A DNA stretch of 64,000 nt from Mycolicibacterium aubagnense (GTDB lineage Bacteria; Actinomycetota; Actinomycetes; Mycobacteriales; Mycobacteriaceae), in the NCBI RefSeq assembly GCF_010730955.1, contig NZ_AP022577.1, forward strand, positions 4,960,001 to 5,024,000, in the 5' to 3' direction. Under the pieces are notes generated by a model that saw only the letters and a program-made list of their open reading frames with translations, had not been told where the DNA came from and searched no databases. Within the stretch, counting starts at the first letter, position 1; the number at the start of each line of letters is the position of its first letter. Below, piece after piece: positions 1 through 15,138 of this stretch. The position numbers and the translations under genes were made by a program.

Positions 1-2
1 TG

Positions 3-959
3 ATCGTCGACACGGGCTCTGCCGGGCTGGTTGTGGATGCGAAGTACGTTCCGTCGGCGCTTCTACGAGCGAGTGAGGCAGATCCGAACCTCCAAGTGAG
101 CGGCTATTCATATGCCGGGAAGAACGGAAGTCAAATATATTACAGCGGCTACACGGTACCGACGACGGTCACTGTCGGAGGTGCGCCGACCGGGAATTCC
201 CAGTGGCCGGGGCAGGTTACCACCGGGAATACCGACGTAGTCGCTGCTACCAAGGTCTGGACGATGGCTCCTTCCCCAGGTTTATTGGGCGGTCTACAAT
301 ACTTCTTCTTTAATTTCATTCCATATATTTTCACTGGCTTTAACCCCGTTCACCTCAGGAATTACACGACCCTGTCCGCTCAATTCCCGGGCGCGGACGG
401 CATTATGGGTATCGGACCTAATGCAGTCGGGCCAGGTCCTATTGTGACGGCGGCGCTACCAGGTCATCTCGGCGCTGGTGAACTCATTGCAGTCGGCACG
501 ACCGCATCGTCCAACTACATCGCTTTCGGCACGTCGCAGGATTTTGGCCTCGGATCAGTCACCGGCGCGGAGTCTGCCCCAACTACACCGGTGGAGGTGG
601 CGGTCACGAAACCGGGCCGGGTTATTGGCTTTACACCGAATATCGAAGCGATTTTCGATTCGGGCGGCAATGTCGGAACGATTGCGTCGTCGCTTGTTCC
701 GGGGCTCAGTGTCGGTTCGCAGGTGCCCGCGGGTTACACCATCACGGTCTCCACTACTGGCGGTGCCCCCATCTACTCCTACACAACGGGCAGCAATGAC
801 GGACCAATAGTCGTTTCGGGCTCCGATTTCAATACTGGGATCATTCCGTTCGACTATGCCGACTACGGCGATCCTCAGGCGCCGTACCAATACCAGGGTC
901 TCTACATCGACAACTCCGGCAATGGCACACTGATAACCCCATCAAGGGTACAGGTCTAG
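3..959 (+). CDS. PecA-like mycobacterial aspartic protease domain (5' end missing)
   Basis: The reading frame enters from upstream of the window, so the start and any PE-type N-terminus are not visible. The first codons spell IVDTGSAGLVVD, with a candidate catalytic Asp at 9-11. A second motif, IFDSGGNVGTI, places another Asp at 657-659. Two D(T/S)G motifs about 216 residues apart are the signature of a pepsin-like aspartic protease. In mycobacteria this arrangement occurs in the C-terminal domain of PecA-type PE_PGRS proteins, which are surface proteases that process PE proteins and lipases. The residues between are rich in Gly, Ser, Thr and Asn, as in exported cell-wall proteins. No export signal can be seen because the N-terminus is outside. 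The gene ends at TAG 957-959. Confidence 0.75.
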   Translation: MVDTGSAGLVVDAKYVPSALLRASEADPNLQVSGYSYAGKNGSQIYYSGYTVPTTVTVGGAPTGNSQWPGQVTTGNTDVVAATKVWTMAPSPGLLGGLQYFFFNFIPYIFTGFNPVHLRNYTTLSAQFPGADGIMGIGPNAVGPGPIVTAALPGHLGAGELIAVGTTASSNYIAFGTSQDFGLGSVTGAESAPTTPVEVAVTKPGRVIGFTPNIEAIFDSGGNVGTIASSLVPGLSVGSQVPAGYTITVSTTGGAPIYSYTTGSNDGPIVVSGSDFNTGIIPFDYADYGDPQAPYQYQGLYIDNSGNGTLITPSRVQV

Positions 960-1109
960 CGCGGTTCGCCCCGCGACCACAAGCGAACTTTTGAGGCAGC
1001 CTCCGCGCCTACTCGCCGAGTGGCCATGCCCGTAGCGTTCGGGCCGCTGTCTATCACGGGTCTAGCCATCTGAGACAGTCGGCTCGCCTGCATCCTCCGC
1101 CTAAATAGG

Positions 1110-1165
1110 GTCTATTGCGAATTGATCGACAGTAGACTAAAATAGATCTTAGACCTTAAATAGAC
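1110..1165. other. Candidate resolvase binding site (res-like inverted repeats)
   Basis: This AT-rich segment directly upstream of the serine recombinase carries four copies of the pentamer TAGAC or its complement. GTCTA at 1110-1114 faces TAGAC at 1133-1137, so the pair spans exactly 28 bp. Further copies lie at 1150-1154 and 1161-1165. Small serine resolvases bind roughly 28-bp inverted sites with TGTC(T/C)-type half-sites next to their own gene. TAGACA at 1161 read on the other strand is TGTCTA. Role is inferred from position and repeat geometry. Confidence 0.45.
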
Positions 1166-1172
1166 ACCGGGG

Positions 1173-1763
1173 GTGCGAGTGGGCAAAGGGCAGACCGTCG
1201 GCTACGTGAGGGTCTCCACCGTCGACCAGAACACAGAAAGGCAACTCGACGGCCTGACCCTCGACAAGCGGTTCGAGGACAAAGCCTCCGGCAAGAACAC
1301 CAGCCGCCCGCAGTTGCAGGAATGCCTCCGGTTTGTCCGCGAGGGCGACACACTCGTCGTCCACTCGATGGACCGCCTCGCCCGATCGCTCGTCGACCTG
1401 CGGCAGATGGTGGATGACCTGACCGGTCGGGGCGTCGCGGTGCGGTTCGTCAAGGAGGGTCTGACGTTCACGCGTGACGACGCCGACCCGTGTTCGGTGC
1501 TTATGTTGTCGATCATGGGCGCCGTCGCCGAGTTTGAGCGGTCGATGATCCGCGAGCGGCAGCGGGAGGGCATCGCCGTCGCCAAGTCCAAGGGCGTCTA
1601 CAAGGGCCGCAAGCCGTCTCTCGGCGCCGATGAGGCTGCTGCTGTGGCTCGCCGACTGAGGAACGGCGAGTCCGCCTCTGCCTTGCGGGATGAATACGGC
1701 GTCAGCCGGGCGACGATCTACAACACGGCCAAGAAGTGGACGCCAGATGCTGCCCAAGCGTGA
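1173..1763 (+). CDS. Small serine recombinase (resolvase/invertase family)
   Basis: A 196-residue protein close to the usual size of Tn3/Hin-type resolvases. The N-terminal catalytic domain has the YVRVST motif with the nucleophilic Ser, followed by the typical RLARSLVDLRQMVDDL segment carrying active-site Arg residues and the EFERSMIRERQREGI long helix. The C-terminus (about residues 150-190, ESASALRDEYGVSRATIY) is a Hin-like helix-turn-helix. It should cut and rejoin DNA at paired sites, resolving cointegrates or inverting segments. The start could be GTG 1173 or GTG 1179. The second gives a better distance from the GGGGG at 1168-1172. The next small gene begins inside its 3' end, suggesting coupling. 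Confidence 0.85.
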   Translation: MRVGKGQTVGYVRVSTVDQNTERQLDGLTLDKRFEDKASGKNTSRPQLQECLRFVREGDTLVVHSMDRLARSLVDLRQMVDDLTGRGVAVRFVKEGLTFTRDDADPCSVLMLSIMGAVAEFERSMIRERQREGIAVAKSKGVYKGRKPSLGADEAAAVARRLRNGESASALRDEYGVSRATIYNTAKKWTPDAAQA

Positions 1764-1911
1764 CAAATCAGCGGCAGATGATGTGACCAACGAACCGCAG
1801 GACGCCGTGGACGTGGGTCCGTACGAGCAGTGGCTGCAAGACGCCTATGCCGACCACCAGCCCGGTGACGACAAGTGGCGACCGCCGGTTGATATGTACG
1901 ACGAGTGGTGA
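1747..1911 (+). CDS. Small acidic protein, 54 aa, related to the 2463 gene
   Basis: ATG 1747 lies 17 bp inside the recombinase gene in another frame, suggesting translational coupling. The product is acidic and has a PYEQWLQDAYA segment followed by QPGDDKWRPPVDMYDEW. This C-terminal part resembles the end of the protein at 2463-2699 (EEPGDEKFRSSIEKCDE). The DNA also matches over the CCCGGTGACGA-AAGT stretch, so the two are probably diverged duplicates. No signal peptide, membrane helix or known domain is seen. Function unknown. Confidence 0.55.
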   Translation: MLPKRDKSAADDVTNEPQDAVDVGPYEQWLQDAYADHQPGDDKWRPPVDMYDEW

Positions 1912-1963
1912 ACCCGCACGCGGTGATGCCCCAGGACGTCCACTGTGAACCGGCGGTGCTGAT

Positions 1964-2173
1964 ATGAGCAAAGAGAAGTACCGCGACATGGGGGGCAACG
2001 TCTACACCCGCGAAGAGCTGGAGCAGGAGATGCTCGACGACGCCACCGGTGTCCCCGCCGAGAACTTCGTCGGTGGCAAGTTCGACTTCGACGCATGGCT
2101 GGGCGAAGAACTGTCGATGGGCTCCATCATCTGCATCGAGGATGAGTCAATGCGCGCTGATGTGCCTTCATGA
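1964..2173 (+). CDS. Small acidic protein, 69 aa (tandem family)
   Basis: A 69-residue protein with 17 Asp/Glu and 6 Lys/Arg, so strongly acidic. Its central region (VYTREELEQEM ... PAENFVGGKFDFDAWLGEEL) aligns with the protein at 2463-2699 (VVTRSELQREI ... PAENWRLGEFNFNDWLLESL). The shared pattern is TR-EL--E, PAEN, G-F-F--WL-E-L. The two are clearly paralogues. The stop overlaps the next ATG (ATGA at 2170-2173). The strong negative charge would suit a DNA-mimic or a recombinase partner, but this is speculation. No known family is recognised. Confidence 0.65.
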   Translation: MSKEKYRDMGGNVYTREELEQEMLDDATGVPAENFVGGKFDFDAWLGEELSMGSIICIEDESMRADVPS

Positions 2174-2400
2174 GCGGCAGAGGCAAGTACATGCCCGATC
2201 CCGAGGGACCCTACGACTGTCTTGACGAGGATTACGTCTTGAGGCCAGAGGCTGAAGAAGAGATCACCGAGTGGAGCCGGTCAGCAGATCCAGGGTGGGA
2301 CTACTCGGAAGATCGGCCCCAGCTGACGGTGGTCGATGCCCCGGATGACGACGATGGAAGCTCCGATTTCATGTGCGCCCGATCGGGTCCGCGGCCCTGA
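2170..2400 (+). CDS. Small acidic protein, 76 aa
   Basis: The start ATG overlaps the preceding stop (ATGA), so it is probably translated with the upstream gene. About 21 of 76 residues are acidic, including a DDDD run near residue 60, against about 7 basic ones. It has no obvious hydrophobic core, signal peptide or known motif, and may be partly disordered. It lacks the PAEN/WL pattern of its neighbours but shares their size, charge and operon. Function unknown. Confidence 0.5.
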   Translation: MSGRGKYMPDPEGPYDCLDEDYVLRPEAEEEITEWSRSADPGWDYSEDRPQLTVVDAPDDDDGSSDFMCARSGPRP

Positions 2401-2462
2401 GGCTCATCGCCATCCACTCACGGCCACCTAGGCATTCACCAGCGAGAACACGAGGTAACGCC

Positions 2463-2699
2463 ATGAGCGATGAAGAGACGTTCCTGCGCGGTGACCAGGT
2501 GGTGACCCGCTCCGAGCTGCAGCGCGAGATCGAGGCAGAAGCCGCCGACGAGCCAGCCGAGAACTGGCGGCTCGGCGAATTCAACTTCAATGACTGGCTT
2601 CTCGAGAGCCTGCAGGTCGGCCTCCTCACACGCGTGGACGTCGATGAGGAGCCCGGTGACGAGAAGTTCCGCTCGTCGATTGAGAAGTGCGACGAGTGA
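2463..2699 (+). CDS. Small acidic protein, 78 aa (tandem family)
   Basis: Paralogue of the 1964-2173 protein over residues 10-55 (VVTRSELQREI, PAENWRLGEFNFNDWLLESLQVG). Its C-terminus resembles the 1747-1911 protein (PGDEKFRSSIEKCDE). It therefore appears to be the full-length member, of which the other two keep overlapping parts. A weak AGG-containing ribosome site precedes the ATG. No enzyme motif or membrane segment is visible. Function unknown; duplication in tandem behind a recombinase suggests an accessory or phage-type role. Confidence 0.6.
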   Translation: MSDEETFLRGDQVVTRSELQREIEAEAADEPAENWRLGEFNFNDWLLESLQVGLLTRVDVDEEPGDEKFRSSIEKCDE

Positions 2700-2860
2700 T
2701 GACTCCGCGTGTCGACCATCTGGACTTCTGCAGGACCAGCGGACCGGCCGCTGTCGCAGGCGACGAGGAAGTGCATGCGTGACTGTCACCGGCCATTTGG
2801 CTGACGTATTGGAGCGTGTTGACAGCGCCCGGTACTGCGGTCTTTCGATTACTTCGTCAA

Positions 2861-3991
2861 ATGGCGATCACGCAAGTCGAGAAACGTAAGTGGCTAGAAA
2901 TGCTGCGTGAAACCCGGTTCGTTCTCGACGCATTGCGCCATCAGACTTGTCAGGCCGTACGGCCGAATACCTTCACCCCTAGTACCCAGAAGTCGCTGTG
3001 GCAGGTGCCTCCCGGAAGGCTCGTGCGGAAGTTCGATTCTGAAACTGCGACTGAAACTGCGACTCTGGGCCCAGAGCTGGCATCTGCGTTGTCCAGCGCC
3101 GTCGACGAGGTCCGCAGCTTTCTCGACAGTCCTCAGCCGTGGACAACGATGCAAGTCGCTCAGGATCTAACGCGCGCAGTACCTGTGATCGACGCGTCGA
3201 TTGATGCCGTGGAGGGCGTAAAAGTGAACGACGAGAAGCCATCCGACGTGGTGGACGAACTCGAACGCGATTATTTGCTCTCACTCGCGGTGACGTTGAC
3301 CGGCCAAGGGACCATCACTCAAAAGTTGTTCGAGTGGGAGGGCGGAAACAAGGGCGATTATCTGGACATTGCGACATTCCGACTAGTTCGCGACGGTGGC
3401 CCTGGGCGGGTGCATATGCGAGATGTACATGAGGCCACCGACGCGGGCATGACGACCTTCCTTTTCGGGAAGGGGTTTTCCAGCTTCGACAAAGATCCGC
3501 AAGTTCAGCGGATGCTGTACAGCCAGTGGTTCACGTACATGTACGCGGTATGGGAGGAGCAATATCGACTGCGACTGGCGAACGCCCATGGTGCTGACGC
3601 CGACGGCGAGCCATGGACGCGTTTCGACATCAGCCACCAATTGTTCGGCGACATCCGCAACATCCGGAATGATGTCGTCCACAAGAACGGCGTCGTCGAT
3701 GCCAGCGCAGATAACAGTCTGCTCACCTGGTTCGGAGCAGGGAAACGGCTCGAAATTCAGGCCGAGCGAATGCTGTCGCTGGTGACGATGTTCCCACGCG
3801 AGGACCTGCTCGCAACACCAACGAGAGCGCAGCCGGGCAACCCGCAAAACCTTCCATGGCCCGTTGCCCCTGAACTTGTCGACGAGATCCGCCAACTTGC
3901 CGATCAAACAGGGTTGACCCGAAAACAGAAGAAGGACATCGGAAATGAAGCCCTCAGGCTGTGGATCGCTGCACGCAAACCAGTGACGTGA
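2861..3991 (+). CDS. Hypothetical protein with HEPN-type RxxxxH motif
   Basis: A 376-residue cytoplasmic protein with no signal peptide. The second half contains YSQWFTYMYAVWEEQYRLRLA followed by FGDIRNIRNDVVHKNG. The last piece holds an R-x4-H pattern at about residues 269-274, preceded by a hydrophobic helix. This is typical of HEPN domains, where the Arg and His act in RNA cleavage in many toxin and defence proteins. The N-terminal half (residues 1-150) shows no motif I recognise. A GTG at 2816 would extend it by 15 residues, but ATG 2861 is preferred because GGAG at 2811-2814 sits too close to the GTG. HEPN assignment rests on a short motif only. Confidence 0.6.
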   Translation: MAITQVEKRKWLEMLRETRFVLDALRHQTCQAVRPNTFTPSTQKSLWQVPPGRLVRKFDSETATETATLGPELASALSSAVDEVRSFLDSPQPWTTMQVAQDLTRAVPVIDASIDAVEGVKVNDEKPSDVVDELERDYLLSLAVTLTGQGTITQKLFEWEGGNKGDYLDIATFRLVRDGGPGRVHMRDVHEATDAGMTTFLFGKGFSSFDKDPQVQRMLYSQWFTYMYAVWEEQYRLRLANAHGADADGEPWTRFDISHQLFGDIRNIRNDVVHKNGVVDASADNSLLTWFGAGKRLEIQAERMLSLVTMFPREDLLATPTRAQPGNPQNLPWPVAPELVDEIRQLADQTGLTRKQKKDIGNEALRLWIAARKPVT

Positions 3992-4064
3992 CTGGCGTTA
4001 GCCGCGCCGACATCTTGCGTCTCGTCGGCTGACCCCAGCACGGAGCCGGGTGTCGAGTCGGCGA

Positions 4065-5021
4065 TTACTCGAATAGCTCTGTAGACCACGCGGCGATGGT
4101 GGGCTCGAACCGCTCAGGAAGGTGGGACCCGGCGGGGCGCGCCCCGCCGGGGGCTCGCGCCGCCGCCTCAAACATGCACACTGCGCATTCGACGATGTTC
4201 AAGGTGACGGCGAGGGCGTCGGCGATCAAGGTGAAAATGGTGCCGCCCCGGGTGTAGTCCGTCATCCATTTGTAGCCGTGGATGAAGCTGGAGCCGTACG
4301 AGTAGAGGGACCGCGCCGGGTTCTCCAAGCCGTGGTCGGCGATCTCGCCGTTGTCGTGGGCCGGGACGTGGGCATCGACCCATTGCGCGGATTCCCGGAT
4401 CATCTTGGTGAACGACGGCGGCTTGGCGAAGGTGTACGCCGTCTTCGCTTCGGCGAGCATCCCGCCGAACTTGCGCCGATGCTCGGCGTTCATTGTCAGG
4501 AGCTGCGCTGGGTACCGGGTCGGGTTGCCGTCCTCGTCCTCCTTGCCGATCAACAGGAACCGACTCTGCTGCTCCAGCTGCTCCATTTCCTCTGACATGC
4601 ACCGGTCTCGCCGGACCTCGCGTGACGGGTCTCTGAGCAGCCAGATGGTCAGGGCAGCGCATTCCATTGCCACCCGGCACAGTTGCAGCACCTCGGCGAC
4701 GTGCGGCTGCCGGTGCGACTTGCGGCGGGCCACTAATACCCCGACGGTGTTTATGCTCTCGACGGCGCTCATCGCCGGAAACAGGGCGTGCTCGGTGACT
4801 GCCTGCGGTCCGGCCAAAGTCAGAGGGTATGCCTGCATGAAGGCCGCGTCGTCGTCGGCAAGTGGGCTCAGCGGTTCGGCAGTGTGTGGGTTCAGCGCCC
4901 ACCGGTACAGGTCACCGCAACGCTGGCCGCGTTCGTCGATGCGACTAAGGACGCCGTTGTGCTTGAAGTTGAATAAGGCCTCGGCTTGCTCGGCAGTCAA
5001 ACCCATATTCGGGATGTTCAT
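4065..5021 (-). CDS. Conserved-type hypothetical protein, 318 aa
   Basis: Starts at ATG 5021 and runs convergently toward the 2861-3991 gene. It is mostly helical, soluble and rich in Ala and Glu, with a segment SLYSYGSSFIHGYKWMTDY near residue 245 that includes a conserved-looking S--xHG element, and a following hydrophobic helix (LIADALAVTLNIVECAVCMF). S-HG segments of this type occur in several uncharacterised families. The C-terminus (APGGARPAG) is encoded by a perfect GC-rich palindrome at 4128-4151. Function unknown. Confidence 0.6.
   Translation of the reverse strand: MNIPNMGLTAEQAEALFNFKHNGVLSRIDERGQRCGDLYRWALNPHTAEPLSPLADDDAAFMQAYPLTLAGPQAVTEHALFPAMSAVESINTVGVLVARRKSHRQPHVAEVLQLCRVAMECAALTIWLLRDPSREVRRDRCMSEEMEQLEQQSRFLLIGKEDEDGNPTRYPAQLLTMNAEHRRKFGGMLAEAKTAYTFAKPPSFTKMIRESAQWVDAHVPAHDNGEIADHGLENPARSLYSYGSSFIHGYKWMTDYTRGGTIFTLIADALAVTLNIVECAVCMFEAAARAPGGARPAGSHLPERFEPTIAAWSTELFE
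4128..4151. repeat. Perfect 24-bp GC-only palindrome inside a coding region
   Basis: The 24 bases are all G or C and read identically on both strands, centred on GCGC at 4138-4141. They lie near the 3' end of the 318-aa hypothetical gene and encode a short Pro-Gly-Ala-Arg tail. A hairpin here could act as a terminator or be a small inserted repeat. Confidence 0.8.
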
Positions 5022-5386
5022 AGCGCCACGCTAAACAGCGGCTACGACAATTCGGGTAGTCGTGGTCAGATCGGCCGGGAGATTGATCAAGGTCTGGAGG
5101 CTGTCGGGTTTGGGTACATGATTCCAGCCCTTTGATCTGGGCGAGTTCGTCGTGGTCATCGGCCGTCAGGTAGGTCGTCTGGTTGATTTCCGGCGTGCAC
5201 TGGGCCGCGGGACTGCGTCATTGATGAGCAGACGGATGGACGTGGTGAGCTGGTCATCGGCGTCGGTTATGTAACCAGCTAACGCGAAGAATTTGGCGAC
5301 GCTACCGCCACGCGGGTGGCCATATGATGAATAGCGGCTGAGCGCACGCGGCGGGGGCCGCGTGCAGGATTTTGGTTGGGGGAGAA
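5022..5386. other. Intergenic region upstream of the WXG100 operon
   Basis: About 365 bp between the divergent 318-aa gene and the WXG100 gene. I see no credible coding sequence or RNA gene. The last part contains a strong purine-rich ribosome site (GGGGGAGAA) directly before ATG 5387. The rest presumably holds divergent promoters, but no clear -10/-35 pair could be assigned. Confidence 0.5.
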
Positions 5387-5686
5387 ATGGCTGATCATCT
5401 GAAGGTCGACCCGATTGATCTGCACATGTCGTCAGCACATATGGATATGCACCACGCTGAACTGCGAACGGCGCACGCGGATGCTCATGCGGATATGGAA
5501 GCTGCGCAGGGAAGCTGGATAGGTGCTTCAGCAGCGGCGCTGCAGGCGAAGTTGGCTGAGTGGCAGGCGACCACCGAGCAGCTGTGCGGTGACATTTCTG
5601 CACATGGTGAGGCATTCAGCGCCGCGGCCCACAAGTACACCAGCACTGACGCGAACGGCGCGCAGGCGATCAACAAACAGGTCTGA
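5387..5686 (+). CDS. WXG100 family type VII secretion protein
   Basis: A 99-residue, helix-turn-helix type protein with the WxG turn motif at about residues 44-46 (GSWIGAS), as expected for ESX/type VII substrates. Such proteins usually pair with a partner and are exported as folded dimers. The N-terminus is His- and Met-rich (LHMSSAHMDMHHAEL), which is unusual. It is translated just before, and overlaps by one base (TGATG), the DUF1023-type gene. From memory the three-gene set matches M. tuberculosis Rv2798c-Rv2797c-lppV. No ESX core genes are nearby, so it would depend on a secretion system elsewhere. A strong GGGGGAGAA ribosome site fixes the start. Confidence 0.85.
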   Translation: MADHLKVDPIDLHMSSAHMDMHHAELRTAHADAHADMEAAQGSWIGASAAALQAKLAEWQATTEQLCGDISAHGEAFSAAAHKYTSTDANGAQAINKQV

Positions 5687-7353
5687 TGGCGGTCACTCTG
5701 GCCGACATCGAACGCTGGGACCCGTCGGCAGTCCGGGAAGTCTCGGATGCGTTGGGCAAGCGTGGTGCCAGTTCGGATGAGGTGAAGGCCGGACTGTCGA
5801 AGCTGCCGCTGATCGCCAGCTGGCAGGGGACTGGTGCAGATGCCGCCCGTGCCTCGTTGGACAAGTTGAGTTCCCACTTGGCCGCTCACGCCGAGGAGAT
5901 GGCAGCGGTATCAGCTGCGACCAAGAAGTCCGCCGATGAGATCGACTCGGTCCGCCAGACCCTGCAGGGCATTTACCGCGATGCCAAGGCGGAACGATTC
6001 GACATCAACCCAGCGACGGGAGCGGTTACTTCGCTCGATAAGGACAACTCCGGCGACCCGATGCGTTTCCTGCAGAAAGTGGACTTGGAAACCCGGATCA
6101 GCAAGGTGCTCGCCGACGCCAACACCGCCGACGCCGACCTCGCCCGCGCCATCACAGCGGCGGGTAAAGAGTCGACCGGGCCGACGGAAACTCGGCCAGA
6201 TGTGCGGGCCGCGTTGTCGAAGCCACTGCCGGAGGACCCCAAACAGTTCAATGAGCTGTGGAACAAGCTCACGCCAGAGGAGAAGGACTGGCTGTACGCC
6301 CAGGACCACAACGTCGGTAACCATCCGGGCATGCCGTTCGACCCCGCCGATCATCTGGGCAAGGACCACTACAACCGGATGCACCTGGACGAGTTGATGA
6401 AGAACTCGCAGGCCAATGTCGACGATCTGCAGCGCCGGTTCGATGCCTTGGCCGCGAAGCAGTACATGGGCGACCACAGCAGTGAGACGGGGAATGCTCT
6501 TGCGGCGCTTGGCCCTCAGCTGCAGGCCGCCAAGTCTCAGCTCGATGGATACAAGGCGGTAAATGGAGCGCTGAACCCACCCAAGGGTGGTGCCAACAGT
6601 GGCATTCCTCGATTCCTGGGGCTGCTCGACGATCAGGGGCACGCTGCCGTGTCATTGCAGAACCCCGACCTGGCCAAACGGGACGCCACGTTCGTACCCG
6701 GCACTGGCCAGAACATCAACGCCTTCGAGGGAAGCAACGAGAAGTCGATCCGCATGTATCAGGCGGCCCTGGCCGCCGACAAGAGCCTGATGCCCGGCGA
6801 CGTGTCCGTGACGACCTGGATGGGCTACGACCGCCCAATGAACCTGCCCGAAGCCTCGTTTACTGATCCCGCCACATCAGGTGCGGGCAATCTGGATGCT
6901 TTCCAGGCGGGGTTGCGAGCCTCTCACGTCGGAGACCCGTCCATCAATACCGTCATCGGCCACAGCTACGGATCGACGTTGGTCGGTGCCGCCGCCAGCG
7001 GCGGGCACCACCTCGATGCGAACAACATCATCGCGGTAGGCAGCCCCGGCATGCTCGTCAACCACGCCGGAGACCTCAACCTCGATCCGGGTGGGCACGT
7101 CTACGCAACCAAGGCCCTCAACGACGTCATCTCACTGGCCACCGACACGACCTTGGGGCCCGACCCGATCGGCCAGTCGTTCGGTGCCACCGACCTGATG
7201 GCAGCCCCAGGCCCCAGCCTGGACCCGTACAGCCTCCTGCCCACCGTCGAAGCCCACAGCTCCTACTGGAGCCCCGGCAATGTGGCGTTGAGAAACATGG
7301 GTGCGGTGATAGCCGGTCAGCCGCCCCCTGTGATCGGATACCCAAGTGGATAG
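5686..7353 (+). CDS. DUF1023-type alpha/beta hydrolase, probable type VII effector
   Basis: A 555-residue protein in two parts. Residues 1-110 form a helical WXG100-like module with a WxG at about 46-48 (ASWQGTG). Residues 340-555 carry an alpha/beta-hydrolase (DUF1023) domain with the nucleophile elbow GHSYGS, Ser at about 427. The N-terminal module probably pairs with the upstream WXG100 protein for export, while the C-terminal domain would hydrolyse an ester or peptide-like substrate outside the cytoplasm. The substrate is unknown. It is tightly coupled to both neighbours. Homology to Rv2797c is from memory. Confidence 0.8.
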   Translation: MAVTLADIERWDPSAVREVSDALGKRGASSDEVKAGLSKLPLIASWQGTGADAARASLDKLSSHLAAHAEEMAAVSAATKKSADEIDSVRQTLQGIYRDAKAERFDINPATGAVTSLDKDNSGDPMRFLQKVDLETRISKVLADANTADADLARAITAAGKESTGPTETRPDVRAALSKPLPEDPKQFNELWNKLTPEEKDWLYAQDHNVGNHPGMPFDPADHLGKDHYNRMHLDELMKNSQANVDDLQRRFDALAAKQYMGDHSSETGNALAALGPQLQAAKSQLDGYKAVNGALNPPKGGANSGIPRFLGLLDDQGHAAVSLQNPDLAKRDATFVPGTGQNINAFEGSNEKSIRMYQAALAADKSLMPGDVSVTTWMGYDRPMNLPEASFTDPATSGAGNLDAFQAGLRASHVGDPSINTVIGHSYGSTLVGAAASGGHHLDANNIIAVGSPGMLVNHAGDLNLDPGGHVYATKALNDVISLATDTTLGPDPIGQSFGATDLMAAPGPSLDPYSLLPTVEAHSSYWSPGNVALRNMGAVIAGQPPPVIGYPSG

Positions 7354-7363
7354 GCGACAGAAG

Positions 7364-8002
7364 ATGAAATGCACCTCAGGCCTGCGGACTGTCGCCGCGT
7401 CGCTGGTTGGTGTCGCCGCTGTCGGTGCGCTGGTGGCGTGTGGACAACACAGCGATCTGGGCCCGAGCGTGCCTACCGGGGCCACACAGATCGGAGGAAG
7501 CCCAATGACATCGGCACCCCCACCGCCTGCCGGTTGGAACCCACACACCATCACGCCGACCAGCCAGCAGCAGGCTCAAGACACCGTCGTGGGTTACCTG
7601 AAGAAGACGCTCACAGCCTTGCCGCCGGGCACCATCCTGGACGCCACCCGCTACGGCGGTGCCGGGAGCAACGCGCCCTGCCAGGACAACCCCACGGGGC
7701 CGGGCAAGCCGCCGACAGAGTTCTCGACCATCGGCGATCTGAAACTGCCCGCTGGCACCAACCCCAACGACGCCATCGCTCAGATCGGGGACATCTGGAA
7801 GAGTTGGGGCTGGCACGTCATCGAGCGCGACGGCTTTCAGAAACCCAACCGCTTCGGCTACGCCCCAGATGGCTACAGCTTGCAGATCGAGGCGGCTAAC
7901 CCACCGGGTTCGCCGCCAACGGTCAACGGCACCACCCCGTGCTATTCCGGCGACCTCCAGCGTGATGACCTACCCGTCCCGAAAATCTTGCAGGCGCAGT
8001 AA
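7364..8002 (+). CDS. LppV-like lipoprotein
   Basis: Begins MKCTSGLRTVAASL and has a lipobox LVAC with the acylated Cys at about residue 26, so it should be anchored to the outer face of the membrane. The mature region is Pro- and Gly-rich, then forms a compact domain of about 150 residues (DTVVGYLKKTLTALPPG, WGWHVIERDG) with two Cys that could form a disulphide (PCQDNP and PCYSG). It follows the effector by a few bases. GTG 7346 would add six residues. As the third gene of the trio it may assist or restrain the hydrolase. Equivalent in position to lppV; function unknown. Confidence 0.75.
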   Translation: MKCTSGLRTVAASLVGVAAVGALVACGQHSDLGPSVPTGATQIGGSPMTSAPPPPAGWNPHTITPTSQQQAQDTVVGYLKKTLTALPPGTILDATRYGGAGSNAPCQDNPTGPGKPPTEFSTIGDLKLPAGTNPNDAIAQIGDIWKSWGWHVIERDGFQKPNRFGYAPDGYSLQIEAANPPGSPPTVNGTTPCYSGDLQRDDLPVPKILQAQ

Positions 8003-8040
8003 CTACGGGTGCGACGACTGCTCGGCCCCCGGGAAGCCGG

Positions 8041-8388
8041 TTGCGGGTGATCAGAGGGTCGGAAGTTCGCCACAATGCCATAATCGAACGTGTCTTCGAA
8101 ACATGGGAAAACATCAACGGGTATCCGACGTTGTACCCCTGCGACCGTCCTGTCTTCGTCGACACCAGCTGGCTGCCCCACTCGGGCACCCGCCGCGACA
8201 AGCTGGCCATGTGGATCAAGTCAGGTGGGCTTCAGGTTGACTACGGGATGCCCGGACGCCAGCTGGCATGGATCAGACGGTCGGGCGGCTCTTGGATTGC
8301 GGTTGTCGAACTGACAGCCCGCAGCGGCAACGTGCGGTCCTCGTTGACGGCGACGCTGTGGCTTCCGCCAGGCGCGATCAGAGCGTAG
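8041..8388 (+). CDS. Hypothetical protein, about 115 aa
   Basis: The codon use is like genuine mycobacterial genes and the frame lies just after the lipoprotein. The product has no signal peptide or membrane helix. It includes Trp-containing strands (SGGSWIAVVELTARSGNV, SLTATLWLPPGAI) suggesting a small beta-rich fold. The start is uncertain: TTG 8041 or GTG 8047, neither with a convincing ribosome site. It may be co-transcribed with the WXG100 operon or belong with the following gene. No family recognised. Confidence 0.45.
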   Translation: MRVIRGSEVRHNAIIERVFETWENINGYPTLYPCDRPVFVDTSWLPHSGTRRDKLAMWIKSGGLQVDYGMPGRQLAWIRRSGGSWIAVVELTARSGNVRSSLTATLWLPPGAIRA

Positions 8389-8458
8389 TGATGCACGGCG
8401 TTCCCGGCGACCGTGTACCGCGTAGCTTCTCGTTCCCCGGCCGGGCAGGATACGGACG

Positions 8459-9409
8459 ATGACGACAGTGAAAGCTGCGTTCGAGTTGGCGCGCGTCGAT
8501 TCTGTGCGGCACATGGCCGCGTGCGAGCAGGCATCCCTCCGATGGGGCGAGGTGGGGATCACCGAAATTGTGACTTCTCGCGCCGCCCCGGCTGTGACGG
8601 TAGCGCCGTTTAGCCAGCCCGCTGAATTCATCAGCGGTGCCGACTGGATTTGGTGGTGGGTCGACGCGACTGCTGCCTACGGGATGCTCGTGCAGGCGAA
8701 GCGCGTGGCGGTTAGTGGGGGGCGGTGGCACTTTGACTTTGCCTACCCGAGGGGGAGTGACAGGCAGCGGAGGCAACTTATCTCCACGGCAGAGACACTA
8801 GGCTTGTTTCCGGCATACGCGCTCTACCTCGGAACGGGAAACTATCGGAGGTGGGAGCGGTGTTCAGATAGTCATCAAGCCGAGGGCTGCCTAGAGTGCA
8901 CTCGGCGATCGCTCTCGGTGATGCCTGCTTTGTTGGCCCGGGAACCGTTGGTAATCGACTCGAAGACCACGTACGAATGGTCGATCGCCCTCGAAAATCT
9001 GTGGACACCGGAATCTGCTCGATTCGTGCCAATTCACCCGCTGACGGGGATTGCGCCAGGCCTTGTGGACTTTCTGACCATGCCGCAGCGCGGGGTGCGC
9101 GCGATATCTCGGGCGATGATCGATCGCGTTCTTCAGGCGCGCCTGGGCCAGTTCAACGCGATGCCGAATGCTGTGAGCGGAATACTGGGGGGTAGCCATG
9201 ATCGGCTGGGGTCAGTTTTCTCGGAATTTCCCGACGACCACTGGGGCACTCCGTATTTCGAGCAAGTGCTTAACCCATTGCGGCACACGCCGCCGTCCTA
9301 CGTGCTCGAACTTGTGTCATCAGAAAGGGTCGATACGGACGCCGTGACAGCCGCCATGCCAGAGACCATAGCGGGGGTTGTCGTTGTGCAGTTGTCTCCC
9401 AACAGCTAG
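8459..9409 (+). CDS. Hypothetical protein with nuclease-like E...D...QAK motif
   Basis: A 316-residue soluble protein. The N-terminal third has a pattern like a restriction-endonuclease fold: Glu36 (GITEIV), then GADWIWWW with Asp62, then LVQAKRV with Gln79 and Lys81, followed by SDRQRRQLISTAETLG. D-(x)n-(E/Q)-x-K spacing of this kind is found in PD-(D/E)XK nucleases. It may belong to the uncharacterised DUF6615 group, but that is from memory and weak. A CxxxxxxxxCLECTRRS segment at about residues 138-150 could bind metal. The neighbourhood is accessory. Catalysis is inferred only from motif spacing. Confidence 0.6.
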   Translation: MTTVKAAFELARVDSVRHMAACEQASLRWGEVGITEIVTSRAAPAVTVAPFSQPAEFISGADWIWWWVDATAAYGMLVQAKRVAVSGGRWHFDFAYPRGSDRQRRQLISTAETLGLFPAYALYLGTGNYRRWERCSDSHQAEGCLECTRRSLSVMPALLAREPLVIDSKTTYEWSIALENLWTPESARFVPIHPLTGIAPGLVDFLTMPQRGVRAISRAMIDRVLQARLGQFNAMPNAVSGILGGSHDRLGSVFSEFPDDHWGTPYFEQVLNPLRHTPPSYVLELVSSERVDTDAVTAAMPETIAGVVVVQLSPNS

Positions 9410-9747
9410 CGCGACGACACCTCTGTTCCGCCGATCCGGCAGGGAATGTTAGAGCCTCGTCTATGCGAGGGCCTTTGAGAATCGTGGGTCCTACTCTGGA
9501 CGCGGCCGACTATGAAGCCTGGGGTGGCAGGTAGTCCCCGCATGGCCCGCCGACAGCCCCCGGCGGCAGTAGCGCCTTCCGTCGGTTTCACACGTCGATC
9601 AACGTCGAGTGTCAATGGCTGGTGAAGACCGCTGCTGGAGCAACCCAACTACCTCAGCCATAAGGCGGAATGCTGAAAGCGTCGGGTACAGAACGCGGCT
9701 CAGGTCGCTTGTCAGACGTAGGTTTACGACCGTGGGGTCTGTGCTTT
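9410..9747. other. Non-coding interval before the IS3 element
   Basis: About 340 bp without a convincing gene on either strand. A short hairpin (CCTCG/CGAGG around 9456-9471, followed by CTTT) could terminate the upstream gene. Nothing else is recognisable. Confidence 0.4.
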
Positions 9748-9817
9748 GGGTCTGCTGCACGAATAGGTGACATCTGAGTTGGCTTGCCCAGCATGGGCGG
9801 GCTGGAAGGATGTCCCC

Positions 9818-10126
9818 ATGGCAAGGCCCTACCCCCGCGAGTTCCGCGACGACGTCGTCCGGGTCGCTCGCAACCGCGATGACGGTGTAACGATCGAGCA
9901 GATCGCCACCGATTTCGGAGTGCACCCGATGACGCTGCAGAAATGGCTCCGTCAGGCCGACATCGACGAAGGCACCAAGCCCGGCAAGAGCGCCAGCGAG
10001 TCCGGTGAGCTGCGCGAAGCCCGACGGCGGATCAAACTGCTAGAGCAAGAGAACGAGGTGCTGCGTCGGGCCGCAGCGTATTTATCGCAGGCCAATCTGC
10101 CGGGAAAAGGGTCTACCCGCTCGTGA
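9818..10126 (+). CDS. IS3-family transposase OrfA
   Basis: A 102-residue protein with an N-terminal helix-turn-helix (DGVTIEQIATDFGVHPMTLQKWL) and a C-terminal leucine-zipper-like coiled coil (LREARRRIKLLEQENEVLRRAAAYL), as in IS3 OrfA proteins that recognise the IS ends. A GGAAGG ribosome site precedes ATG 9818. The AAAAG run at about 10104-10108 near the end is where a -1 ribosomal slip would join it to OrfB. The frame upstream of the GTG of orfB reads KRVYPLVKELAADGIPVAV, as in typical OrfAB fusions. Confidence 0.9.
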   Translation: MARPYPREFRDDVVRVARNRDDGVTIEQIATDFGVHPMTLQKWLRQADIDEGTKPGKSASESGELREARRRIKLLEQENEVLRRAAAYLSQANLPGKGSTRS

Positions 10127-10979
10127 AAGAGCTCGCCGCCGACGGGATCCCCGTCGCGGTGACGTGCCGGGTACTCAAGCTCTCCCGCCAACCGTATTAC
10201 CGCTGGCTGGCCGACCCCATCACCGAGGCCGAACTCATCGAGGCCTACCGCGCCAATGCGCTGTTCGACGCGCACGCAGACGATCCGGAGTTCGGCTACC
10301 GCTACCTCGTGGAGGAGGCGCGCGATGCCGGCGAGCCGATGGCCGAGCGCACCGCATGGCGGATCTGCTCGCAGAATCGACTGTGGAGCGTGTTTGGTAA
10401 GAAACGCGGCAAGAACGGCAAAGTCGGGCCGCCGGTGCACGACGATCTTGTCGAGCGTGACTTCACCGCTGAAGGGCCAAATCAGTTGTGGCTCAGTGAC
10501 ATCACTGAGCACCGCACCGGTGAGGGCAAGCTCTACCTCTGTGCGATTAAGGACGTGTTCTCCAACCGGATCGTCGGCTACAGCATCGACTCCCGAATGA
10601 AGTCACAACTGGCCATCCGGGCACTACACAGCGCGGTAGCCCGACGCGGAGATGTCGCGGGGTGCATTCTGCACTCGGATCGCGGATCTCAGTTCCGGTC
10701 AAGGAAATTCGTACACGCCTTGAATCAACACGAGATGGTCGGCTCTATGGGCCGTGTCGGAGCCGCCGGCGACAACGCCGCCATGGAGAGCTTCTTTAGC
10801 CTGCTGCAGAAGAACGTGCTCGACCGCCGCCGCTGGGACACCGAGAACAACTCCGTATCGCGATCGTCACCTGGATCGAGCGCACCTACCACCGGCGCCG
10901 CCGCCAGTCCGGCCTCGGGCGGTTGACCCCGATCGAATTCGAAGCAATCATGACCACACCGGCCAGTCAGGCCGCGTGA
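10123..10979 (+). pseudogene. IS3-family transposase OrfB, frameshifted
   Basis: Integrase-core transposase with DDE elements visible: NQLWLSDIT (first Asp), LHSDRGSQF (second Asp) and NAAMESFFSLLQKNVL (Glu). The frame is lost at about 10841 where one base appears to be missing in GACACCGAG (expected one more C). Restoring it recovers the usual ending, with LRIAIVTWIERTYHRRRRQ and GLGRLTPIEFE, to the TGA at 10977-10979. As read, the protein ends abnormally at 10926 after losing the C-terminal part. Either the copy is dead or this is a sequencing error. Confidence 0.85.
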
Positions 10980-11262
10980 CCGAAACTGTCACCTGATCGT
11001 GCAGCAGACCCCTTCGTCAACGCTCACCCGACGATCATCTAACTCGACACCGACAGGAGGAGGCACCTCGTAAGGGAGTGTCCGACAGCCCGCCCTAAAG
11101 CAATTGCCGGTGGCTTGCCGCGGCACCTAACAACAGCGAGCGGTCTCACGGTCATCCGCGCGCAAACAGAGTTGTCACCCCAATGCGGCACCATCGAGTC
11201 AGGCCGGGCGATTCGTGGAGTCGCAGTCAGCAGGAATGGATTCAACTAGGGGAGGGATTGCT

Positions 11263-11835
11263 ATGACGCAGGATGCATTGGGGGCGGTCGGTGCGCGACT
11301 CGGAAAGATCGATTTGGAGGCGCTGACAGACGATCAGGCCATCGCGCTCGCACAGGCTCAAGCTGCGCTGATCAAGCCGAATCCTGATCCCGCTGAAGAA
11401 GTTTCGGAAACGCGATCGATCGGCGACGTTGTTGGCGGCTGGTTCCGGGAAGAGTCCTTCTACCGAGACGTCACCACCAGAACGCTGTCGGCAATACTGG
11501 CGGCCCTGCTCGCTTACCTGGGAGCTGTGGCGCTCGGCTATGTGGGCACACCGTCTCCAGTGGCTGTTTTTGAGCTCGGCTACGCCGTCGCAACGGCTAT
11601 CTGTGTGGCGTCCACGGGATACGCCAAGGCAACTGGGCGGGAGTTGCTGGCGGGGACACTCTTCGTGCTCTATTGCGTGGTCGCTGCTGCGGTGTTTTGG
11701 TACGGACCAACGTGGGGTGGCGACCTCGGTTGGAAGGACAAGTGGAGCTGGATCGCGTTGGTGCTGCAGGTCGCTTTGATGATCGGCGCGTTTGGATTTG
11801 TGCGGAACCGCCGCAAAGCGCGTGCAACGCGATGA
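11263..11835 (+). CDS. Small multi-pass membrane protein, 190 aa
   Basis: Starts at ATG 11263 behind an AGGGGAGG ribosome site. The N-terminal 70 residues are soluble and acidic (LTDDQAIALAQAQAAL). Four hydrophobic segments follow: TLSAILAALLAYLGAVALGY, VFELGYAVATAICVAS, ELLAGTLFVLYCVVAAAVFW and WIALVLQVALMIGAFGF. A basic tail (RNRRKARATR) ends the protein. The stop overlaps the next start (ATGA), so the two form an operon. No known family. Confidence 0.6.
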   Translation: MTQDALGAVGARLGKIDLEALTDDQAIALAQAQAALIKPNPDPAEEVSETRSIGDVVGGWFREESFYRDVTTRTLSAILAALLAYLGAVALGYVGTPSPVAVFELGYAVATAICVASTGYAKATGRELLAGTLFVLYCVVAAAVFWYGPTWGGDLGWKDKWSWIALVLQVALMIGAFGFVRNRRKARATR

Positions 11836-12560
11836 CGGTGATTGATCCACCGCCGCCAGTGATCCTTGACCGCCCAGGGACGGTCCGGTGGGCGGCGGGT
11901 GACCCCGAGGGGCCGCGGTCGAGCACCTGGCGCGTCGAGGGAGTTAGCAACAAGCGGGGACGAGATGACTTCTATGTGGGTACCCGTCAGACCATGAAAG
12001 CGGTCAAAGTGAGCCTCCATGACGCTGACCGAGAGCGGGGGTGTCCACCTGCAACGGTCTGTGCGTTCACCAAGGAGTTCTCCGTCGCCAATGGGCTCTC
12101 AGAGCGCTGGAGGCTGAATCTGGGTCAGACGACAGAGGTAGCGCCTGGGTGGCGGCACGAACTCACCGTCGCGACTCCAACTACCACCTTCGGCGTGTTC
12201 GACGAAACACCGCCGCTCAAGAGAGCCGAGACAATCCAGTGGTGGGTTACGCCGCCACACCCCTGGCAACTTTGCTTCCATTTCTACGTCGGCGAACCCG
12301 GTTGCTGTCCAGTGTCACTCGACTTCCATGTGGGGGAGGTTTGTCGGATGCCGCTTGCGAATGGCCGTTGCCTGTGGATTGTTGCGCAGTGCGAACGGAT
12401 GGCGGACACCGTTGGCGAGGCAATCCGGGAACGTGTCGCGCGGCTTCCTGTGGAGGCAAATCACGTGTACCCCTTCACGCTGTTGAAGACTGAGGGGCGT
12501 GTGCCGGTTTTGCTCGACCTTGCAGTGACGAACCGGCCTCGGCGACCGTCGATCGCGTGA
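11832..12560 (+). CDS. Hypothetical protein, 242 aa, coupled to a membrane protein
   Basis: ATG 11832 overlaps the stop of the membrane protein. The product is soluble and Trp/Pro-rich, with a Cys-containing central region (HPWQLCFHFYVGEPGCCPVSL) and a C-terminal helical part (MADTVGEAIRERVARLPVE). I recognise no domain. The coupling suggests it works with the upstream four-helix membrane protein. It sits between the two IS elements in the accessory region. Confidence 0.55.
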   Translation: MTVIDPPPPVILDRPGTVRWAAGDPEGPRSSTWRVEGVSNKRGRDDFYVGTRQTMKAVKVSLHDADRERGCPPATVCAFTKEFSVANGLSERWRLNLGQTTEVAPGWRHELTVATPTTTFGVFDETPPLKRAETIQWWVTPPHPWQLCFHFYVGEPGCCPVSLDFHVGEVCRMPLANGRCLWIVAQCERMADTVGEAIRERVARLPVEANHVYPFTLLKTEGRVPVLLDLAVTNRPRRPSIA

Positions 12561-12578
12561 GATCGATTCATCGTTTGG

Positions 12579-12627
12579 TCACCTCTGTTGACGGTTTCAT
12601 TGATTTTCAACACCTTGTGCGGAACCG
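12579..12627. repeat. Imperfect 50-bp direct repeat, copy 1
   Basis: Matches 14971-15020 at about 38 of 50 positions with one gap. Both copies begin TCACC, share TTGACGGTTT and TCAAC, and end AACCG. The two copies enclose the IS256 remnant and one hypothetical gene. The second copy also forms an inverted repeat (GACGGTTTT/AAAACCGTC). Origin unknown; could be old element ends or duplicated regulatory DNA. Confidence 0.55.
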
Positions 12628-12645
12628 CGAGGTTGCGTCCATCAA

Positions 12646-14042
12646 GGTGGTGTACGAGTCGGACCTGATCAGCGGTACCGGCGTGTCGTAGCCGAGTGAT
12701 TGAAGGTCATCGCGTGATTCTTCGAGAGACCGTCCAAAGTCACTCGAGCAAAGGAATCGACGCGATGACCACTGCCCACAATATCGATCTGCCCACTGTG
12801 CTGGCCGAACGACTCACCACTGCCCATCCCGACGTGCTGCGCGAGCTGCTGGCCACGTTCATCCACACCCTGATGGGCGCCGAAGCCGACGCCCTATGCG
12901 GTGCCGGCTACGGCGAACGCTCGGCTGAGCGCACCAATTCCCGCAACGGCTACCGACACCGTCAATTCGACACCCGTGCAGGGACTTTGGATCTTGCGAT
13001 CCCGAAGCTGCGGCAAGGATCCTACTTCCCGGACTGGCTGCTGGAGCGCCGTAAACGCGCCGAGCGGGCCCTGACCACGGTGGTGGCGACGTGTTACCTG
13101 CTTGGTGTCTCGACGCGGCGGATGGACAAGCTGGTCGAGACCCTGGGCATCACGTCGTTGTCGAAGTCGCAGGTGTCGGTGATGGCCAGGAACTCGACGC
13201 CGCCGTGGAGGCGTTCCGGACCCGGCCGCTCGATGCCGGCCCGTATACGTTCGTCGCTGCGGACGCTCTGGTGCTCAAGGTGCGTGAAGCCGGCCGGGTG
13301 GTCAACGTGCACGCCCTGATCGCCGTCGGGGTCAACGCCGAGGGCTACCGCGAGATCCTGGGAATCGATGTCACGACCGCTGAGGACGGGGCGGGCTGGT
13401 TGACGTTCTGGCGGTCGTTGACCGCCCGCGGCCTGTCCGGGGTCAAACTGGTCACCAGCGACGCCCACGCCGGGCTGGTCGCCGCCATCGGGGCCACCCT
13501 GCCCGGAGCGGCGTGGCAGCGCTGCAGAACCCACTACACGACCAACCTGATGTCCGTCACTCCCAGAGTTCGTGGCCCTGGGTGCGCACCCTGCTGCACT
13601 CGGTGTTCGACCAACCTGACGCTGAATCCGTTGCTGCTCAATATGATCGGATCATCGACGCATTGTCCGACAAGCTGCCCAATGTCGCCGATCACCTCGA
13701 AGCGGCGCGGCCGGATCTGCTGGCGTTCACCGCGTTCCCCAAGCAGATCTGGCGCCAGATCTGGAGCAACAATCCCCAGGAACGACTCAACAAGGAGATC
13801 CGCCGGCGCACCGACGTCGTGGGCATCTTCCCCGACCGCGCGGCCCTGATCCGTCTCGTCGGAGCAGTGCTGGCCGAACAACACGACGAATGGGCCGAGT
13901 CGCGGCGCTACCTCGGCCTCGACGTTCTGAGCAAATCACGCACCGTCAACGACACCCCAACCGAACAGGAGGCTACCCCCGCGGCACTGCCCGCCTGACC
14001 CAACTACCTCGAAGAATCACACGACGACGTCATACACCACGT
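12646..14042 (+). mobile_element. IS256-family (mutator type) insertion sequence, decayed
   Basis: About 1.4 kb with a transposase flanked by inverted repeats. The outer ends read GTGGTGTACGA at 12647 and its near-complement at about 14030-14041. An inner perfect 13-bp pair, GTGATTCTTCGAG at 12714-12726 and its complement at 14008-14020, lies further in. No matching 8-bp target duplication is evident. The transposase has two frameshifts, so the element is unlikely to move by itself. Confidence 0.8.
12765..13998 (+). pseudogene. IS256-family transposase with two frameshifts
   Basis: The protein can be rebuilt from three frames. MTTAHNIDLPTVLAERL to LSKSQVSVMA runs to about 13188. DAAVEAFRTRPLDAGPYTFV to HYTTNLMSVTP runs to about 13562. 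SSWPWVRTLLHSVFDQPDA runs to the stop at 13998. The mutator transposase pattern is visible: Asp in VAADALVLKV, Asp in LVTSDAHAG, the WQRCRTHYTTN segment and the Glu region near NNPQERLNKEIRRRTDVVGIFP. At each break a single A seems missing from a Lys codon: GCC-AAG reads GCCAG, and CCC-AAG reads CCCAG. Inactive as read. Confidence 0.9.
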
Positions 14043-14157
14043 CCCTGGACTTGACCAACCGCGAGTGGCTCTGTTCGGGCTGGTACAGCTTGCACCGCTT
14101 CACCTCGACGAAATTGATGTGCAGTCCGTCGAACAGAGCAGCAACGTCCGCCACCGT

Positions 14158-14919
14158 TCATTTCGGGCCGAGGGTTATTGCTGCACGCTTTCCGTCCAGC
14201 AGCGCGCCCAAAGCCGCAGGTGGCTCGCTTGTGTGTGTTTGTGGCCAGATAGCGCCGTCGCATGCTCGGACGGCTGACGCGAGGTCGTCCAACATCTGCT
14301 GGAGCCGAAGCGAGGTCAGTGGAACGTCCGTGGGGTCGAAAGGTCCTCCGCGCGTTGGTCCGGTTTCCGTCATGAACTGCTCACGGAGTTCCTTTGTGCG
14401 CAATTCACCGCGTTGGTGGGCTAGCAGATGTCTCAGTTCGCGGATGTACGTGACGTTATCGGTTTCGAGATTGCTGCCCAAGGCCTCGTGTATACGGCAC
14501 AGCGTTCCCCAGGAGGGAGAGTTCTGACCTTTTCTAACGACCGGAGTCAACCGGCGGACGGAGCCATCGACGTCGTCGACGCCGCGCCATCGTCCTAAGG
14601 CCTCGCCGGCGCTCTTCTCGGCATACACTTCGAACGCCGTGACCGCATCACGTAGTGCCCCTGTTCTGAGCATCCAAAAGTAGTCCTCCTCCCAGAGGTA
14701 GCCCACTCTGCTCAGGAAGTCGTAGAAATACTCGTTGGGCTCGTCGTTGTCGGGATCGAAGCGCCTCTCGAATTCGTTCCTGGCATCGTCCAAGGATTGG
14801 GCGTAGGCGACCGAGGCCCATTTCTCAGAAAGCTGTATGTAAGAACGGATGTCGGCGTCTATGGCCTTCCAATCATTGAACGCGCGGCTTCTCTGCTCAT
14901 CGTGGTGGATCCAAGGCAC
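14158..14919 (-). CDS. Hypothetical protein with HEPN-type RxxxxH motif
   Basis: A 253-residue acidic, helical protein starting at GTG 14919. The segment NVTYIRELRHLLAHQRGEL has Arg163-x4-His168, the spacing of HEPN ribonuclease motifs, within a predicted helix. Before it, FLSRVGYLWEEDYFWMLRTGALRDAVTAFEVYAE resembles helices of the other HEPN-like protein at 2861-3991 (both contain WEE-Y). No toxin-antitoxin partner is seen directly adjacent, since the IS256 remnant is on one side and the tRNA scar on the other. Assignment is motif-based. Confidence 0.6.
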   Translation of the reverse strand: MPWIHHDEQRSRAFNDWKAIDADIRSYIQLSEKWASVAYAQSLDDARNEFERRFDPDNDEPNEYFYDFLSRVGYLWEEDYFWMLRTGALRDAVTAFEVYAEKSAGEALGRWRGVDDVDGSVRRLTPVVRKGQNSPSWGTLCRIHEALGSNLETDNVTYIRELRHLLAHQRGELRTKELREQFMTETGPTRGGPFDPTDVPLTSLRLQQMLDDLASAVRACDGAIWPQTHTSEPPAALGALLDGKRAAITLGPK

Positions 14920-14970
14920 GGACGTGACTTTATGTGCCGAATTGGCGCGGACGGTGGATCCATCGCTTAT

Positions 14971-15132: not shown

Positions 15133-15138
15133 CAGATA

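Follow-up and report, generated by a model that had tools for sequence, protein, structure and literature searches.

Separate gene families in a mobile island of Mycolicibacterium aubagnense, among them an unrecognised HEPN-like family with an RHH-like C-terminus in some members

In this study, we analysed a 64,000-nucleotide stretch of the Mycolicibacterium aubagnense genome (6.3 Mb; contig NZ_AP022577.1, positions 4,960,001 to 5,024,000), referred to here as the window, in which genes for a small serine recombinase, four small acidic proteins (open reading frames ORF1 to ORF4) and a HEPN-like protein follow one another on the forward strand between positions 1110 and 3991. These genes are separate families in a low-G+C, transposase-rich mobile island, and not a conserved unit. 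The cassette is ordinary; of moderate interest is an unrecognised and undescribed family of HEPN-like, probably RNA-cutting proteins, several of which have a ribbon-helix-helix (RHH)-like tail. With moderate confidence, we read the HEPN-like protein as island cargo, a stand-alone ribonuclease (RNase) for abortive infection, and the resolvase and the acidic accessory proteins as separate from it.

The HEPN-like protein (2861..3991, forward strand, 376 aa) consists of an N-terminal helical bundle (residues about 1-123), a HEPN-like region and a C-terminal segment (about 327-372). As the initial annotation had stated, it contains an R-x4-H motif, R269-NDVV-H274, and we also find an acidic motif, E232-x3-R236. 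The marks of the HEPN superfamily were taken from Anantharaman et al. (PMC3710099), who describe an Rx4-6H motif at a helix end, in helix 3, whose R is followed by a polar residue (chiefly N, D or H), and, in many families, a further acidic residue in helix 2, typically as Ex3[KR]. When 22 family members were aligned, W231, R236, A240, R269, D271 and H274 were invariant, and the residue after the motif R was polar as expected (N in 15, Q in 4 and H in 3). Position 232 is E in 14 members, D in 6 and N in 2, giving [ED]x3R in 20 of the 22, with R236 present in all. Database relatives of the window proteins were scored among the 7999 candidates with the most shared words; R[NQHD]DxxH is kept in 50 of 53 such relatives of the HEPN-like protein, the other three being 217, 352 and 226 aa long. 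At least eight close relatives among the scored candidates have 490-493 aa, and the three of these that were inspected carry an N-terminal extension of about 115-125 residues. In the structure model (predicted local distance difference test, pLDDT, 85), the motif at 269-274 ends a helix at 260-275 and the acidic motif lies on a helix at 214-243; a model of the region alone agrees, with R150 and H155 on a helix at 141-155. On these models, the motif helix would be helix 3 of the HEPN fold. The family was found in 25 of 297 genomes of the genus (about 8%, own genome included), its database relatives include Nocardia and Rhodococcus proteins, and eight plasmid records (seven of Rhodococcus and one of Mycolicibacterium) hold a match.

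The initial annotation had raised the possibility of a self-contained module whose conserved part would be the acidic family, and this proposal was examined by comparing loci. Because our simple in-house gene caller can miss small genes, co-occurrence was counted on six-frame open reading frames, in 29 loci with the HEPN gene, 10 with the acidic family and 25 with some serine recombinase match. Flanks were mostly 5-7 kb and shorter in some; in L039, L048 and L069, one of the two flanks falls short of 1 kb. The HEPN loci represent all 24 other matching genomes plus three loci from a DNA search, but not G130, G303 and G341, where short stretches of DNA match the HEPN gene, and the acidic loci represent 9 of the 13 other genomes matching ORF4, leaving out G174, G177, G186 and G235 (E 8e-4 to 0.008). 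Since the set contains near-duplicates and partial genes (L117 nearly repeats L039, L118 repeats L038, and L050, L069 and L070 hold the HEPN gene in pieces or in part), the 29 HEPN loci are not 29 independent intact cases. Within a few kb, the acidic family was present in none of the 28 other HEPN loci and the HEPN gene in none of the nine other acidic loci, so that the two stand together only in the window, and the proposed module is not supported. A form of that proposal in which the acidic proteins would be antitoxins or inhibitors restraining the HEPN RNase and the recombinase would move the set can draw on the adjacency and common strand of the genes in the window and on an acidic charge that would suit an inhibitor of an RNA-binding protein. 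Against it stand these counts, as well as an integrase gene within about 5.5 kb in five of the nine other acidic loci. We reject this module on co-occurrence and consider it very unlikely.

Three of the nine other acidic loci have some serine recombinase gene at most about 4-6 kb from the acidic gene, and it is therefore not the case that the small genes are never found near one; the HEPN gene is what is missing there. The subfamily of the window recombinase (about 70% amino acid identity) is represented among the other acidic loci only in L059, and together with the HEPN gene only in the window and in L101, where the HEPN gene (72% DNA identity) is the upstream one of the two and an ApeA-type gene separates it from the recombinase gene. 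Other recombinases near HEPN genes are 35-43% identical to that of the window (L046, L057, L061), a fragment of another subfamily (L055; 30% over 110 residues) or, in L045, an apparent recombinase with a weak match at the helix-turn-helix (HTH) end only.

In the C-terminal segment of the HEPN-like family, Pfam RHH_1 was matched at E <=1 by 5 of 16 members tested (of 22; best 3.9e-5), and a full-length scan gave an RHH match in 1 of the 22 (9.4e-4). When a profile of the C-terminus was compared with the PDB, the best hits were a CopG-family protein (0.0024), a designed protein (0.011), the antitoxin Rv0298 (0.013) and CopG (0.016). The C-terminus of some members thus appears to resemble a CopG-type RHH domain. 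The window member has a three-residue insertion in this segment, shared with L038, and its monomer model shows helices at 337-349 and 354-372 with no strand before them.

These features bear on two alternatives to an RNase of abortive infection. First, the HEPN-like domain could be an RNA- or protein-binding regulator rather than an RNase and, with the RHH-like tail, control transcription of the island. This would suit the RHH-like C-terminus of some members, and HEPN domains that lack the motif, MtlR among them, are considered non-catalytic (PMC3710099). In this family, however, the motif is retained, both the R and the H being present in all 22 members. Integrase matches were found in 9 of the 29 HEPN loci (within 3 kb in 7); of the other neighbour clusters, none is found within 3 kb of the HEPN gene in more than three of the 29 loci. 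The clusters reaching three are an excisionase-type and an ESX-type cluster (both labelled by eye), the recombinase and a short cysteine-rich protein (L045, L048, L066). We regard a regulator as unlikely, and as the most probable of the alternatives. Second, RHH domains are common in antitoxins, and the tail profile matches one of them, Rv0298, so that the protein could be a single-gene addiction toxin with the tail as fused antitoxin, which would keep the island rather than fight phages. Addiction usually rests on a toxin and an antitoxin that decay at different rates, which a fused pair cannot do, and the tail of the window member is itself without an RHH match; we hold this explanation to be quite improbable. 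A still more elaborate scheme is a one-gene immune switch, in which the RHH tail would repress the gene and hold the RNase inactive until invader DNA or a DNA-mimicking acidic protein removes it. The acidic proteins of mobile elements would then be the trigger and not the antitoxin, a combination that we give the least credence of all.

Returning to the RNase of abortive infection, we propose that the HEPN-like protein would act alone, the two R-x4-H motifs of a dimer forming a metal-independent RNase site. The enzyme would be held inactive, possibly through the N-terminal bundle or the RHH-like tail, and the tail might also bind the gene's own promoter. Phage infection would trigger the protein, leading to RNA cleavage and growth stop, and the gene would be an interchangeable piece of defence cargo. 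The defence role suggested in the initial annotation is made plausible by neighbouring genes of HEPN homologues. For example, an ApeA-type gene (PF18862 4.3e-12, PF18739 9.1e-8) lies 0.8 kb downstream of the homologue in L101, and type IIG/I restriction (L042), HEC-05 with a UvrD-like gene (L044), PDC-M42C (L041) and, at 4.3 kb, Vsr (L051) were found near others. By Pfam, an SLFN AlbA_2 gene adjoins the HEPN gene in L068 and an NB-ARC gene was found in L043. In L068 (5864-8529), the HEPN-family gene overlaps the start of the Schlafen AlbA_2 gene by 4 nt, which suggests a two-gene operon in that genome. Separately, L041 and L068 show the same four neighbour clusters, one of them PDC-M42C-like, around divergent HEPN-family genes, which we read as one island common to both genomes, whose HEPN cargo has been exchanged or has diverged.

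Several results weigh against this interpretation. None of the libraries Pfam, NCBIfam, PADLOC and PHROGs gives a significant match for the window protein. With hhalign, comparison with alignments of four HEPN families (PF18735, PF18739, PF01934 and PF13643; the alignments hold 3, 2, 14 and 7 sequences), built without L161, which has a stop, and L176, which is below the cut-off, gave scores no better than shuffled or reversed controls. The shallow PF18735 alignment did set both R-x4-H motifs together, at a score within the controls, and PF18735 was matched by 1 of the 22 members, at 0.12. Fold searches with the whole model or with the HEPN-like region gave no significant HEPN match, and a search against viral structures gave no match at E 0.001. 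The window protein's own C-terminus has no RHH_1 match. As for the neighbours, those with a defence function come from hand-picked proteins and carry no background rate; PADLOC returned nothing for the ApeA-type protein of L101, for proteins of L043, L045, L046 and L048 or for single proteins of L103 and L113, and the matches in L037 were no more than partial, of RecD/PDC type. The whole-model fold search returned mostly generic helical bundles, with known HEPN folds weakly present, and the absence of HEPNs from such lists is not evidence against a HEPN. Because fold matches are weak and the profile-profile comparison failed, the label "HEPN-like" is founded on the motif, on the fact that it is invariant and on where it lies in the helices; assignment to any of the four known subfamilies was not favoured, no hhalign result having exceeded the controls. 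The HEPN gene product had no tblastn match in a phage collection, and a literature search found no HEPN-RHH protein named in the titles or abstract openings that were listed.

The four small acidic genes, all on the forward strand, are ORF1 (1747..1911, 54 aa), ORF2 (1964..2173, 69 aa), ORF3 (2170..2400, 76 aa) and ORF4 (2463..2699, 78 aa), with net charges of -9, -11, -14 and -15, respectively. They had been described as coupled by overlaps. All are indeed acidic, and overlaps exist between the recombinase gene and ORF1 (17 nt) and between ORF2 and ORF3 (4 nt), but gaps separate ORF1 from ORF2 (52 nt), ORF3 from ORF4 (62 nt) and ORF4 from the HEPN gene (161 nt). The claim that three of them are paralogues also holds in part. 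ORF2 and ORF4 align with a score of 105, against a best of 51 among 2000 shuffles, and read as true paralogues. ORF1 and ORF4 score 53, against a best of 44 among 2000 shuffles, a likeness that rests on a 59-nt DNA repeat at both gene ends (1859-1917 and 2650-2708, 78% identity), so that the C-terminal part of ORF1 is related to the end of ORF4 through a duplicated gene end. Between ORF1 and ORF2 there is no significant similarity, since 328 of 2000 shuffles reach their score. ORF1 has a single database match, a 42-aa protein identical to the product of ORF1 when translation starts at an internal GTG, and outside its own genome its best E was only 0.006 in the 297 genomes. ORF3 was rejected as a family member, since 1873, 1411 and 1453 of 2000 shuffles scored as high against ORF1, ORF2 and ORF4, respectively. 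It is a doubtful gene: its coding signal is the weakest of the six genes (0.071 per codon versus 0.095-0.300), and the 297 genus genomes hold no convincing homologue (best E 0.005, with two stops).

The acidic proteins nevertheless represent a real family, as had been supposed. A nine-member profile finds 113 database proteins at E <=0.01, of which 109 have a net charge of -5 or below (median -12); the named ones are from Mycobacterium or Mycolicibacterium, a taxonomy that rests on the minority carrying names. In M. llatzerense, protein P0051 is 92% identical to ORF4 and P0077 resembles ORF2 by eye, and the two are probably located together. The C-terminal tail of ORF4 is absent from its two closest database relatives, P0051 and P0061. 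P0001 shows two domain copies by eye, and second acidic copies in L062 and L063 were not significant. No tblastn match to ORF2, ORF4, the L059 protein or P0055 was found in the phage collection, none to ORF4 or P0008 in viral contigs, and the best E against PDB sequences was 0.15. Named genome contigs searched with ORF4 and the HEPN protein gave no match, which reflects the sensitivity of the pattern, since whole-genome searches do find homologues. We take ORF2 and ORF4, a duplicated pair, to be probable small accessory proteins of integrative elements in mycobacteria; as a guess, they might occupy a DNA-binding host protein, in anti-restriction or a similar role.

The small serine recombinase of the initial annotation proved to be full-length (1179..1763, forward strand, 194 aa, or 196 aa from GTG 1173; the start is the GTG at 1173 or 1179). 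It has the N-terminal Resolvase domain (Pfam 6.7e-39) and C-terminal HTH (HTH_7, 1.4e-7) that mark serine resolvases of the resolvase/invertase type, and matches phrog_125 (4.3e-62). Just upstream, on the same strand, lies a res-like site (1049..1167) with three blocks conserved in the alignment (1049-1078, 1099-1130 and 1132-1167), which we infer to be res subsites. In 17 other loci, the first 140 bp upstream of the recombinase gene have a mean identity of 57% to the window and the next 140 bp one of 26%; the block is not conserved in L107 (0.39) and L109 (0.34). The DNA match starts 130-137 bp ahead of the start codon in six other genomes (G199, G210, G213, G296, G157 and G381). Many relatives of the recombinase sit in elements with an integrase gene, and in L105, the one scanned for phage-type genes, Prim-Pol primase and large terminase genes lie near it; elements of this type are integrated phages or phage satellites. 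Because of the conserved site of about 130 bp just upstream, as in integrated phage-like elements, the recombinase is more readily taken for a resolvase than for the mover of a cassette. It would bind this site and resolve multimers of, or rearrange, its source element. A mover was not favoured: the site is single-copy in the genome at E <=1, and the relatives belong to integrase, primase and terminase elements.

Among the 18 loci of the recombinase type (L101-L116, L119 and L120), six have recognised defence genes or homologues from the same clusters near the recombinase. Besides L101, these are L104, L108 and L112, with a cluster of cytosine methyltransferase, Vsr and Eco29kI-type endonuclease (in L108 and L112 by same-cluster genes), L106, with type I restriction, and L111, with a methyltransferase and a Vsr-cluster gene. 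For the other 12 loci, scans of single proteins of L103 and L113 (PADLOC) and of L107 (Pfam) gave no match. In these six loci, the DNA around the resolvase and its res-like site, in integrated elements of mycobacteria, carries varied restriction or HEPN-type genes and is possibly a cargo hotspot.

As to the setting, the mobile context that had been suspected is borne out by an island with integrase-like and transposase-like genes. Positions 1-16000 of the window have 58-67% G+C, against 64-71% in 16001-64000 (1-kb steps), and the low-G+C stretch reaches upstream to around a tRNA-Lys gene (L121 16970-17043). After this gene come integrase-like, excisionase-like and replication-like genes and, farther on, transposase-like genes (labelled by eye from protein sequences); the tRNA-Lys gene with the integrase-like gene behind it (L121 17362-18174) may mark the place where the island inserted. 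About 11 kb ahead of the window start stands a second, divergent member of the HEPN family (30% identity; L055 8261-9382, reverse strand), beside fragments of another serine recombinase, its start about 115 bp from a tRNA-Thr gene (9497-9571, own gene call). Around the cassette, a fragment of a 555-aa gene of the window and a transposase-like gene pair (IS256-like by eye) are each present twice, equally oriented (L055 11618-13312; window 5686-7353 and 12765-13998), the two transposase pairs being about 20 kb apart; together these may represent a composite duplication. Positions 1-959, directly upstream of the resolvase, encode the C-terminal portion of a PE-PGRS/PecA-like aspartic protease (PF20729, 3.1e-29). 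On the reverse strand, a gene at 4065-5021 converges on the HEPN gene and encodes a 318-aa protein with a weak DUF5677 match (20.9 bits, cut-off 27.1), possibly a second cargo gene.

If defensive, the HEPN family would add a one-gene system to the mycobacterial repertoire, which is relevant to work on mycobacterial phages, and its combination of HEPN and RHH-like tail hints that control is built into the protein itself.

Compared with known systems, the components of the cassette show both shared and distinct features. Tn3-type small serine resolvases act at tripartite res sites. Like them, the window recombinase has a Resolvase domain, a C-terminal HTH and a conserved site just upstream; unlike them, its relatives are tied to integrase, primase and terminase elements, and its use of the site is putative. 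The acidic family has its counterpart in phrog_3378, a phage protein family of unknown function, which 7 of 9 members of the acidic family match (best 3.6e-8; ORF2, 1.1e-4; ORF4 itself, no match). With ApeA (HEPN_Apea, PF18739), the HEPN-like family shares the HEPN motif and a place on mobile DNA, and an ApeA-type gene lies near the HEPN gene in L101, but PF18739 is absent from the 13 Pfam families matched at E <=1 by any of the 22 members. With the HEPN/MNT toxin-antitoxin system (HepT/MntA), it shares the Rx4-6H motif, and the HepT chain 7ae6 was a weak hit of the fold search (rank 44, Foldseek E 4.2, probability 0.30), but Pfam shows no nucleotidyltransferase among the eight window proteins scanned. 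Two one-protein systems offer parallels by analogy, not membership. DS-11, a CBS-HEPN system reported with DefensePredictor, needs its HEPN residues for defence (PMC13092281). Tha, a defence protein of a Staphylococcus aureus prophage, is described as a 301-aa HEPN protein with RN-x3-H (RNSIMH) and no recognised N-terminal domain (PMC11087260). Likened to it by description only, the window protein is also a single protein on mobile DNA with RN-x3-H (RNDVVH) and no recognised N-terminal domain, and differs in its 376 aa and in its extra C-terminal segment, RHH-like in some members. As Tha illustrates, a single prophage-borne HEPN protein with RN-x3-H can carry out abortive infection (PMC11087260).

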